Below, one piece after another: positions 12,434 to 16,466 of a stretch of DNA of 64,000 nt; position 1 is the stretch's first letter, and each line of letters begins with the position of its first letter. A program made the position numbers and the translations under genes. Where the stretch lies: NCBI GenBank assembly GCA_949752735.1, contig OX457044.1, forward strand, positions 18,959,685 to 19,023,684, written 5' to 3'. The notes below the pieces were generated by a model, which made no database searches, was not told the DNA's origin, and saw only the letters and a program-made list of their open reading frames with translations. This DNA comes from Lumbricus terrestris (Eukaryota; Annelida; Clitellata; Crassiclitellata; Lumbricidae).

Positions 12434-12485
12434 ATGTGGTCGTTACTGCTTTCTGCGCTGATTCTGATCAACGGCTATAGTTGCG
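12434..12485 (+). CDS. Neuropeptide exon 1: signal peptide
   Basis: ATG follows 'cgtggagtt'. A hydrophobic core (LLLSALILI) and a small-residue end (Y-S-C-A) fit a signal peptidase site near the exon junction. Too short for an ordinary ORF listing. Confidence 0.75.
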
Positions 12486-15400
12486 GTAAGCTCTTCTCCG
12501 TCTTCTATGTAAAATTAATGTAATATATGAACTGCTAACGTCATCCACTTTAATCATATATATATTTATTATATATATATATATATATATATATTCGCCC
12601 TCGTCATCTTCCTAGGCCTGCTACTAAGACTCCATGCATCCAATCATATCCCAAGTTTCTTTAAGAGTACGGTATACACCATTATGCATGTCCTAAGCTG
12701 AAGTAGAAGTCAGGCCCTATATATGCTAAACTTTTTAAAAAAAGGATATGCATGCCAAACTCGGAAACTAAGTAAGATTTTCATCTTCGCCAGTGAGACA
12801 GCGTGACCAAATTTTTTTGAAAACTAAGAAATCTTGGGGACTAAATAATTTTGAAAATTTCCGCGAATTTAAAAAGCGCGAACAAATAAACGGTCGTAAG
12901 GAATTGTAATTACGAAAAAATCAGTAGAAGTCATGACAGCAAACAATACATATGATAGTCCGTTATTCTGTAGTCTCTCGATGATAAGCATGTCTTCAGT
13001 ATTGTTTGGTAAAATAAAGAGATGCTACATAAACTCAGCTCTTTTCCTACCATGCAGTGGCGGCGCCAGAGGGGATAGGGGGCTAAACCGCTCCCAAAAA
13101 AGGTGATCAGGTTTTTTGACAGGGAAAATGAAATATTTTCATGAGATTTCGACTAAGCCCTCCCCCCACACCCTCCCCCCACTAAAAAGGTGGTCAGGTT
13201 TTTTGGAAAGGGAAAATGAAATAGAGTCTATTTTCAAGAGATTTCAGCCAAACGACTAAGAAAAGGTCGTCAGCTATTTTTTGACTGGGATAATGATTGA
13301 AATATTTTCTTGAGATTTAGATCAAATGACTAAAAAAGAAGGTCGTCAGAAATGTCGGCGAATTAAAATGAAAAATTCCTCCGCGATTCGTCCCCCTCAA
13401 CTTCTGGACAAATCTCCGCCCATGGACTTCACCCCCTCCTCCAAACTGAAAACCTGGCGCCGCCACTGTTTCCTACAACTCAATTGCCTGGAATCTCTGG
13501 ATTCGCCTATGCTTGAAGGATTTGTTGCTTTTTTCACTTCTTATTCCGAGAGCAAATTCATGGGGTTATGGATCGATGCGTTATATTGTTTCCATATGTT
13601 TCTGCTTTGATCTGACGGCGGTTCACATGCTGCAGCAAAAGCGAAAAACGATGAACTGGAAGAAGAAGAAGAAGAAGAAGAAGAAGAAGAAGAGCAACGG
13701 TGGAATTAAGTGACGTCTGAAAGATGGACAACTTTCGGATGATCGGACAGATGGAGAAGCGCGATCAATATCAGCGGACAAGGAATCCATGGACTTACAT
13801 GGAAAGAACGAAGGAAGAAATAACGAAGAAGAGAAGGATACAGGAAGGAACGGAGGGAAGGAATGAAGGGAAAAAAGGAATAAAGATGGATGACTTCAGG
13901 ATGAAAGAAAAGAGGAATACAGGAAGGAAGGAAGGATGGATGAATTGAATATAGGAAGGAATCGAATATATAGAAGTAACGAATGAAGAAGGAATGAATA
14001 ATGTAAGAATTGAAGGAAGGAAGGAAGGAAGGAAGGAAGGAAGGAACAAAGAGACGACGGTAAGATGAAGGAAGGAACTTCAAGGAAGGAAGGAAGGATG
14101 GATGAAATAAATAGAAACGGGGGTGAAAGATAGAAGTAAGGAGGGAAGAAGGAAAGAATAATGTACACGAATTGAAGGAAGTTATGAAAGAAGGAAAGAA
14201 CAATGGGATGACGATTGGGATGAAGAGGAAGAAATTGAGAGACGAGAGAGGGACGGGAAAACGAAAGACGAAAGAAGGGAACGAAGACTTACACTGAGCG
14301 ACAGAGTTTCGAATCAGATGACTGACCTCTGACCTTTCAACCAGCGCACTGAATAACAGACAAATCAATCAATCGATAAGATGTTCATCGATTGCCAGTG
14401 ATGATGATGATGCTAATAATAATAATAATAATAATAATAATAATAATAATAATAATAATAATAATAATAATAAAAATAATAATAATAATAATAATAATAA
14501 TAATAATAATAATAATAATAATAATAATAATAATAATAATAATAATAATAATAATAATAATAATAATGGCGGACTCGGTATTCGCAGAGTCGATTCGCTG
14601 GCTTCTTCTGCCTACTTGGCTTCAGCCGCGTCGACTCTCGAGCTTCAGACCGCCATTCTTGCGACCGTGGAGGCAGCCCCTGATGTGTATGTGGCGGACC
14701 TGTTGGAGGCACGTCAGGACACCTTGCCTGCGACGATAGACCCTATGCCCATCAGACAGAGTTGCTGGGATCGGCCTCTGATCGAGAAAGACAAGTTGGA
14801 AGTCAGCAGAAGCGCCGTCGATTTGGTCAACCAAGCCAGGCTGGTCGCGGTCAGCAGTCCACATTCAGCCGACTGGCTGACTGCGCTCCCGATTGCCGCG
14901 TGTGGCCTCGCGTTGGATAATGAGGCGGTCCGGGTGGCGGTGGGATTGAGGTTGGGTCTGGACTTGTGCGGTCCTCACACATGCCACTGTGGCGCTGGAG
15001 TGGGCCCGGAGGGCCACCATGGCTTCGTTTGTAGGAGGGCCTTGGGACGCTCTTTGCGTCACCACGCCATAAACGACATCATCTGGCGCGCCCTCCTCAA
15101 AGCAGATATTCCGAACGTCAAGGAACCCGCGGGCCTATTTAGATCTGACGGCAAAAGGCCCGACGGTGCAACCCTAATACCCTGGTCAGAGGGGAAGTAC
15201 CTGGCATGGGACGCCACAATTGTGCATACTTGCGCCGCCTCTTACATTACTCCACCAGCCAATCTGGTAGGACCGGCATCAGTGCAGGCGGCCAACCGTA
15301 AAACCCTGAAATATGCAGGTCTTCCCGCTTCTTACATCTTCCTACCAGTGGCAATAGAGACCCTAGGCCCGCTTAATCCATCAGCCTTGGAATTCATCAA

Positions 15401-16466
15401 CGAAATCGGCAAACGCATATCGTCCATCACTGGTGACAGACGCGAAGCAACTTTTCTTTTCCAGCGACTGTCTGTCAACATTCAGCGCTATAACTTGGTC
15501 GCTTTTAAAGGAACTTTCTCTTCAAACCCTCAAGACGAGGCCTGACAATTCCGGACTAGTTTTTAATCAATAGTTAGCAATGAAGTCCCTGAGGGATCCT
15601 AAATACCTCGGGGCAACAAAAAAAAAATAATAATAGTAATAATAATAATAATAATAATAATAATAATAATAATAATAATAATAATAATAATAATAATAAT
15701 AATAATAATGCAGTAGCATTCCGCGGCTCTTTTCCTGCACTGGATTTCAACGACGACTAGGTGCCGTTCCAGATGTTTTTATATTAGTAATAGGGTGTAA
15801 GTCCCTGAGGGATCATATGTACCTCGGGGCAAATTGAAAAAAAAAATTAATTGTTTTGTTGATTGACCTACAGCCGACCAATCGTCGTCGCTCTTCAATT
15901 ACCCGCCGGACGATGCGAGGCAAGGTTGCCGTACGATGCTGGATGATCCGAGGACATCCTCCTCATCCTCATCCTCATCCTCACATCGACGTTTCCATCC
16001 AAGACAAGAGAAGCTGATCCAAATGGAAGAGGAGCGAAGGAAGAGACAACTCTTCAAGATTCCACGCGTCGGAAGGTCAGCGAACGACGAAAGAGAAGAA
16101 CTCACCTTTTCCAACTTTCCCTCCTCATCCTTATCCTCCCTCTTCTCCTCTTTCCTTCCCAAACAGTCCTCATCCTCTTCTTTTCCACCTGTCTCATCCT
16201 CTTCCTTTCGTCTTTCCATGCAGCCCTCATCCCTTTCGTCGCCGTACTCGCTCCCTGCTTCCCATTCCGCTTCCTCCTCCTCCTCCGACTACCTTGCTCC
16301 AGCACACTCCGCCTCACCTTCCTCATCCTACGATTCTCCTCTGAACGACGATCAGGTCAAGGAGATGACCTTCGGAACCGGAACGAGGGATCAAAGGAAC
16401 ATTCTGACAAAGATTCCTCGAGTGGGACGAAGCCAGCGGAAGGTCGAAGAAGGAAAACTGTTCTGA
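12434..16466 (+). CDS. Neuropeptide precursor with two KIPRV-amide peptides (2 exons)
   Basis: Exon 1 (12434-12485) encodes a signal peptide, MWSLLLSALILINGYSC. Its donor is gtaagc, phase 1. Exon 2 (15874-16466) follows acceptor cctacag and completes the codon as Ala, giving a 214-residue secreted precursor with no other membrane segment. Residues 76-85 read QLFKIPRVGR directly after a KR site; cleavage, C-terminal Gly amidation and Gln cyclisation would give pGlu-LFKIPRV-amide. Residues 193-203 (NILTKIPRVGR) follow a single Arg and would give NILTKIPRV-amide. The two are separated by a long Ser/Pro-rich spacer. The C-terminal PRV-amide recalls the PRX-amide superfamily (pyrokinin, CAPA, neuromedin U), but the usual Phe two places before PR is replaced by KI. 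Family membership is inference. The intron carries several transposons. Confidence 0.8.
13051..13468. mobile_element. hAT MITE (CAGTGGCGGCGCCAG ends)
   Basis: TIRs CAGTGGCGGCGCCAG at 13055 and CTGGCGCCGCCACTG ending 13468. The 8-bp direct repeat tttcctac is at 13043-13050 and 13469-13476. Four extra bases (catg) lie between the left duplication and the TIR. The interior has 'gatcaggttttttga' and 'gtcgtcag' repeats. A sister copy is at 41400. Confidence 0.88.
13655..13695. repeat. GAA microsatellite
   Basis: About twelve GAA/AGA units in the peptide-gene intron. Confidence 0.85.
13800..14300. repeat. Purine-rich GGAA-type low-complexity tract
   Basis: Strongly strand-asymmetric purine sequence with 'aaggaagg' runs. 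The Ser/Phe/Pro-rich minus-strand frames are artefacts. Confidence 0.8.
14408..14566. repeat. TAA microsatellite
   Basis: About 50 TAA units with one AAA interruption, directly abutting the retroelement coding fragment. Probably the tail of an earlier insertion into which the next element jumped. Confidence 0.9.
14566..15545 (+). pseudogene. Non-LTR retrotransposon ORF, C-terminal end with restriction-like endonuclease
   Basis: An open frame runs from the TAA tract (NGGLGIRRVDSLASSAYLASA; 5' truncated) to TGA at 15545. It contains a zinc-knuckle-like C-x-C...H...C (CHCGAGVGPEGHHGFVC), then GRSLRHHAIND, and a PD-(D/E)XK-like block (KRPDGATLIPW...LAWD), the layout of R2/R4/NeSL-type elements with a C-terminal restriction-like endonuclease. 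The reverse transcriptase itself is missing. The frame has no stops, which suggests a fairly young dead-on-arrival copy. Confidence 0.7.
15546..15710 (+). mobile_element. 3' UTR and TAA tail of the same retroelement
   Basis: Contains 'gactagtttttaatcaatag' then 'gtccctgagggatcctaaat' and 'acctcggggcaa', an A run, and about 25 TAA units. The same block is at 30415-30505. Confidence 0.75.
15711..15846 (+). mobile_element. Related retroelement 3' tail, second copy
   Basis: 'aacgacgactaggtgccg', 'ttccagatgtttttatatta', 'gtccctgagggatcatatg' and 'cctcggggcaaa' blocks match the copies near 10400. It ends 27 bp before the neuropeptide exon 2 acceptor. Confidence 0.65.
15874..16466 (+). CDS. Neuropeptide exon 2: both mature peptides
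   Basis: Begins in phase after acceptor cctacag with DQSSSLFNYPPDD. It holds peptide 1 at 16047-16076 and peptide 2 at 16398-16430, and ends KVEEGKLF then TGA. An alternating TCC/TCA tract encodes the poly-Ser runs. Confidence 0.8.

Follow-up and report, generated by a model that had tools for sequence, protein, structure and literature searches.

A probable IPRV-amide neuropeptide gene, one of two related genes in the earthworm Lumbricus terrestris

Neuropeptides are cut from larger precursors: the signal peptide is removed, convertases cleave at basic sites, the C-terminal Arg is taken off, the exposed Gly is converted to an amide, and an N-terminal Gln turns into pyroglutamate. The described systems closest to the locus reported here are the PRXamides, which include ETH, CAPA/periviscerokinin, pyrokinin/neuromedin U, mollusc sCAP, pleurin and the myomodulin precursors that carry PRX-amide peptides. 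Passages of PMC6660194 report receptors for ETH in many bilaterian phyla but their ligand in panarthropods only. We analysed a stretch of 64,000 nucleotides of the L. terrestris genome (contig OX457044.1, positions 18,959,685 to 19,023,684; hereafter the window), which contains a gene for a putative precursor of two short peptides with a common IPRV-amide end. We put the probability at about 0.86 that this is a functional neuropeptide gene and that it forms an IPRV-amide family with a second, related gene of the species. The reading frame, the splice signals, the cleavage and amidation sites, the conservation and the second gene, on which this conclusion is built, are all read from sequence.

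The original prediction for this locus had joined a 52-nt signal-peptide exon in phase 1 to an exon with two copies of KIPRVGR. The sequence bears out that join, as exons 1 and 2 together would encode a precursor of 214 residues, in frame and without internal stop. The parts of the gene are as follows (window positions; a slash marks an exon boundary).

12190..12199, plus strand: TATA-like motif gctatataag, about 235 nt 5' of the ATG; a possible promoter, by likeness only
12434..12485, plus strand: coding part of exon 1, 52 nt, ATG at 12434, donor GCG/GTAAGC; its product is MWSLLLSALILINGYSC plus the first base of a split Ala codon, a predicted signal peptide with cleavage expected after ..YSCA
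12486..15873, plus strand: phase-1 intron of 3388 nt, GTAAGC...CTACAG
15874..16466, plus strand: exon 2, remainder of the precursor up to the TGA stop; the relatives P0001-P0003 described below align over this exon
16035..16046, plus strand: basic cleavage site RRKR ahead of peptide 1
16047..16076, plus strand: peptide 1, QLFKIPRV, with Gly (amide donor) and Arg; identical in the three relatives
16077..16385, plus strand: Ser-rich spacer, less conserved
16386..16397, plus strand: cleavage site R-D-Q-R (RxxR) ahead of peptide 2; RSQR in the relatives
16398..16430, plus strand: peptide 2, NILTKIPRV, with Gly and Arg; NI[LQ][TV]KIPRV across the relatives

Residues 1-18 of the precursor, MWSLLLSALILINGYSCA, resemble a signal peptide in which Ser occupies -3 and Ala -1, and pass a home-made rule for such peptides (see below). 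The phase-1 intron divides the Ala codon at the predicted cleavage site. KIPRVGR occurs twice, with Pro codons at 16062 and 16416, in the contexts ..RRKR^QLFKIPRV-G-R and ..TRDQR^NILTKIPRV-G-R, and a six-frame scan of the window found no other PRVG[KR] string. Both copies are preceded by basic cleavage sites and followed by GR, and these sites are conserved. Here the earlier description needs two amendments: its basic cleavage sites are present at both copies, but that of copy 2 is RxxR and not dibasic, and its classic KR site followed by Gln is found in copy 1 of the window, whereas the relatives have RR. The computed [M+H]+ values are 982.62 for predicted pGlu-LFKIPRV-NH2 and 1052.69 for predicted NILTKIPRV-NH2. 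Pfam returned no family at E <= 10 for the window precursor, P0001 or P0002, and neither Rfam (at gathering scores) nor ARAGORN had a match in the window. The intron contains simple repeats and, at 14567-15620 between ATA repeats, a 3' fragment without Pfam match that we take to be LINE-like; the 79-nt tail of this fragment recurs at 30428-30506 (92%) and, more weakly, at 15764-15842 (62%).

Exon 1 was subjected to chance tests in which donors were scored with a simple splice matrix and signal peptides were judged by the home-made rule, not by SignalP. The exon 1 donor is equalled or exceeded by few sites on the plus strand (22 of 3441 GT sites, itself included). With its own score as the cut-off, eight phase-1 start-exon candidates were obtained on this strand, and exon 1 was the sole one with a hydrophobicity of at least 2.2. 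When donors scoring at least 3 were admitted in the 8 kb upstream of exon 2, a signal-like rival start exon appeared at 8253-8349 (donor 4.38), within the neighbouring receptor gene, together with one further candidate that is repeat-coded; a threshold of 0 added two more starts. In dinucleotide shuffles of the 8 kb, a candidate with a donor of at least 6.5 and a hydrophobicity of at least 3.2 arose in 2 of 200, and one with a hydrophobicity of at least 2.2 in 27 of 200. Under a stricter rule, written post hoc after both signal exons described here had been seen, exon 1 was the only candidate in the 8 kb, and none of 400 shuffles contained one.

We searched approximately 5.8 billion proteins with the window precursor. 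Of the 8000 candidates that were scored, two proved to be relatives, P0001 with 55% and P0002 with 51% identity to the query in local alignment. A profile was then built from these three sequences with the Ser-rich spacers masked. Among 1089 candidates it returned P0001 and P0002 again, as it must by construction, and one more, P0003, which is nearly identical to P0002. Conservation of KIPRVGR in related species had been proposed as one test on which the prediction should stand or fall; both sites are kept exactly in P0001 and P0002. RQLFKIPRVGR and R-S-Q-R-NIQ-[TV]-KIPRVGR are common to all three relatives, where the window reads R-D-Q-R-NILT at the second copy, and the site before the Gln of peptide 1 is RR in both P0001 and P0002 versus KR in the window. 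In a column test on the window precursor, P0001 and P0002, from which P0003 was omitted as a near-duplicate of P0002, 21 of 23 columns of the peptide core were invariant against 61 of 139 other ungapped columns (Fisher p = 1.3e-5). Thus, it is the peptides that are kept. The N-terminal residues of P0002 look like intron read-through, and an ADQS block just past the acceptor is common to the window and P0002, which fits the proposed splice site. Two scans of viral contigs found no relative.

The same layout recurs in a second gene of this genome, which the original prediction had not foreseen and which strengthens the precursor reading. Searches of the L. terrestris assembly covered 1,056,305,194 bases in 331 sequences. 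The pattern KIPRVG gave five matches genome-wide, of which two are the window gene and one (L002) belongs to a gene on C6 with the following exons.

G000:C6, from 24101888 downwards, minus strand: exon 2 of the second gene (L002), a 200-codon frame with a phase-1 acceptor
G000:C6, 24108535-24108466, minus strand: candidate signal exon MVSESLRKQLVWLCLVHFCCAFA/V, donor 8.6, 6.6 kb upstream

The other two matches were rejected: L001 lies in a short frame and reads KIPSVG, L003 reads KIPRVGS and then stops, and neither has precursor features. The C6 frame contains RQVYNIPRVGK and RQVFSKIPRVGR, that is, the peptides QVYNIPRV-G and QVFSKIPRV-G. Each gene would yield a peptide of 8 residues followed by one of 9, separated by a long low-complexity spacer, and in each a phase-1 intron lies at the signal-cleavage site. 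The stricter rule admits no candidate but the C6 signal exon within the 26.6 kb upstream, and a candidate arose once when 8 kb were shuffled 400 times. The one Pfam match of the C6 precursor (E 4.8) was taken as chance. Just before the exon 2 stop, a strong donor is present (L006, G000:C6:24101316, CAG/GTAGGT, score 10.1), and the C6 precursor may have a third exon.

The two genes likely descend from one ancestor. As the precursors hardly align outside the peptides, their kinship is argued from layout and motif. A tblastn search of the genome with the window precursor gave six matches, namely exon 2, exon 1 (E 0.245) and four at E 3.5-9.0, and a search with the C6 exon-2 protein gave four, itself and three at E 0.44 or worse. 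These searches, which were insensitive in that each missed the known other gene, did not find a third member; further members of the family are therefore possible.

We propose the following function. The signal peptide of exon 1 would direct the precursor into the secretory pathway and then be removed, and prohormone convertases would cleave at RRKR and R-x-x-R. After trimming of the C-terminal Arg, the exposed Gly would be converted to an amide, and the N-terminal Gln of peptide 1 would cyclise to pyroglutamate. The predicted products are pGlu-LFKIPRV-NH2 and NILTKIPRV-NH2 for the window gene, and pGlu-VYNIPRV-NH2 and pGlu-VFSKIPRV-NH2 for the C6 gene, the last two with computed [M+H]+ values of 970.55 and 1055.64. 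Once released, these IPRV-amides would most probably signal through a rhodopsin-class receptor from the broad PRXamide group, and the invariant C-terminal IPRV-amide is presumably the end read by that receptor. The analysis offers, from a common animal, a set of four short amidated peptides of defined sequence, which can be tested on earthworm PRXamide-type receptors, nerve and gut.

Elsewhere in the window, part of a nicotinic acetylcholine receptor subunit gene adjoins the peptide gene (5533-9976, plus strand); its best named matches, all from annelids, are those of Helobdella (80%), Capitella (81%), Dimorphilus (67%) and Owenia (65%). RhoGAP and PH domain frames at 46106-55526 on the minus strand probably belong to one Rho GTPase-activating protein gene. 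An open frame of 1119 codons (35145-38501, plus strand) has no Pfam match at E <= 0.01 and overlaps a repeat-rich stretch. Two inverted repeats were also seen, one at 61249-63823 with arms of 1031 nt that are 99% complementary and made of 376-nt tandem units, the other at 28178-29463, 530 nt and 98% complementary, flanking a DDE transposase-like frame. The palindrome TAGGCCTA occurs 25 times in the whole window, against 0.63 expected from trinucleotide content.

The position of the earthworm peptides among PRXamides was assessed with a table of residues -4, -5 and -6 in 24 published peptides (6 ETH, 4 of 6 named CAPA/pyrokinin, 5 myomodulin PRX, 6 pleurin and 3 sCAP) and the 4 earthworm ones. 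The two omitted peptides (PMC8291126) are CAPA-1, which lacks the PRX end, and a second Tribolium pyrokinin, which again has Phe at -5; the statement on position -4 is unaffected by them. All four earthworm copies end in PRV-Gly, with the amide predicted from the Gly, and so belong to the PRXamides in the loose sense. Residue -4 is Ile in all four, residue -5 is K, K, N and K, and residue -6 is F, T, Y and S. ETH peptides have Val or Ile at -4 in six of six cases, while among the other 18 only one, a myomodulin PRX peptide, has Val there. The earthworm genes share this position with ETH, as well as two amidated peptides per precursor at both loci, but the Lys at -6 of all six ETH peptides is found in none of the four. 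They also lack the Phe at -5 of pyrokinin/neuromedin U, the Phe at -4 of CAPA and sCAP, and the Tyr at -4 and the length of 14-15 residues of slug pleurins, and neither precursor contains LRL- or LRM-amide peptides as in myomodulin. Since no named subfamily corresponds in full, we read the IPRV-amides as of loose PRXamide type and file them under none, in agreement with the earlier remark that PRV-amide recalls the PRXamide superfamily without pointing to a subfamily.

Several observations count against a functional gene family. The reversed control of the KIPRVG pattern also gave five matches, so a motif match alone is worthless. The records of the relatives begin inside exon 2 or, in P0002, with apparent intron read-through, so exon 1 is without support from them, and neither AATAAA nor ATTAAA was found within about 2 kb 3' of the stop. 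At the C6 locus, each peptide is preceded by a single Arg (EER^, GLR^), a weaker cleavage site, and a looser rule (donor at least 3, hydrophobicity at least 2.0) gave eight start-exon candidates upstream, the majority of which have weak donors or do not resemble signal peptides. Outside the peptides, the best BLASTP piece between the two precursors reaches 24.6 bits over 18 residues, in keeping with the failure of tblastn with either precursor to find the other gene. Finally, splicing, processing, release and the receptor are steps that we infer. The corresponding rival reading is a chance open frame and no gene, for which the Ser-rich, low-complexity character of the frame speaks. Conservation in relatives, the second gene and the signal exon speak against chance, which we hold to be highly improbable. 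A neuropeptide precursor, as originally predicted, is the best reading given the conservation and the second gene of the same layout.

Within that explanation, three family readings compete. The IPRV-amides may be a novelty of clitellates, or of earthworms, with a PRV-amide end of independent origin and a receptor of their own, a reading that we consider possible, if somewhat short of an even bet. Only P0001-P0003 were found (2 of 8000 candidates, and 3 of 1089, two of which were in the profile) in a database that includes Capitella and Helobdella proteins, and for several precursors of Platynereis no orthologue is known elsewhere, according to passages of PMC3890597. However, searches of this kind overlook short peptides and would pass over unannotated exons, the queries were the window precursor and its profile and not the C6 gene, and the large difference between the two earthworm genes suggests that their split is not recent. 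As for the claim that the peptides are new, IPRV-type motif strings matched nothing on neuropeptides in the open-licence literature, and novelty holds within that scope; annelid precursor lists may already include an IPRV-amide family. A strongly diverged branch of neuromedin U/CAPA/sCAP, standing in for the canonical lophotrochozoan sCAP gene, appears rather unlikely to us. It would account for the PRX-amide end and for two peptides per precursor, which recall slug sCAP1 and sCAP2 (PMC7749107), and the exact pattern for the mollusc ending AFPRMG matched the genome at two places versus one in the control, neither in a precursor-like frame. Yet Phe is absent at both -4 and -5 of the earthworm peptides, Platynereis has an sCAP precursor (passages of PMC3890597), and an annelid sCAP may end otherwise than in AFPRM. 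Among the AFPRMG matches, L019 was set aside as it reads AFPSMG, and L020 solely for its 27-codon frame without a second copy; L020 does read AFPRMGR.

The third reading, which makes the IPRV-amides the counterpart of ETH in lophotrochozoans, acting on an annelid ETH-type receptor, is in our estimation quite unlikely. It draws on position -4, where all six ETH and all four earthworm peptides agree in having Val or Ile against 1 of 18 other PRXamides, on ETH precursors carrying two peptides, certain of which end in PRV-amide (in the section of PMC5394484 that treats them), and on lophotrochozoan ETH receptors being listed as orphans in a portion of PMC8557429. The missing Lys at -6 (six of six versus none of four) and the length of 8-9 versus 12-18 residues oppose it, and passages of PMC6660194 report no eth orthologue beyond panarthropods and do not name annelids among the receptor groups. 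A bolder version remains a long shot: the earthworm genes would be the first ETH-like ligands outside panarthropods, derived from an ancestral protostome precursor of two [IV]PRX-amide peptides that was later recruited to moulting in arthropods, and the annelid form would be the ligand of the orphan lophotrochozoan ETH-type receptor. The peptides touch a gap here, with ETH receptors across phyla and the lophotrochozoan one an orphan (parts of PMC6660194 and PMC8557429), and the idea is worth testing because the ligand is described from panarthropods only. Even if the link to ETH fails, two functional genes for peptides that strictly retain the IPRV end would make a testable clitellate signalling system.

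Set beside the known systems, the earthworm genes resemble each in part. Like arthropod ETH (for example DmETH2, GENFAIKNLKTIPRI-amide), they combine an [IV]PRX-amide end with two peptides per precursor; unlike ETH, reported only from panarthropods, their peptides are shorter and lack the Lys at -6. CAPA/periviscerokinins (FPRX-amide) and pyrokinin/neuromedin U (FxPRX-amide) share the PRX-amide end, but the former have Phe at -4 where the earthworm peptides have Ile, and the latter Phe at -5 in place of Lys or Asn. Mollusc sCAP precursors (AFPRM-amide) likewise yield two amidated PRX peptides of short length, with AFPRM where the earthworm has IPRV. Pleurins (YPRI- or YPRV-amide) end in PRV-amide in some copies, and a single genomic intron is described for their genes in the literature; the earthworm peptides differ from them in the residue at -4 and from slug pleurins in length, and pleurin is said to have been possibly lost in annelids. 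The myomodulin precursors with PRX-amide peptides share that end with the earthworm precursors, which carry two IPRV-amides and no LRL- or LRM-amide.

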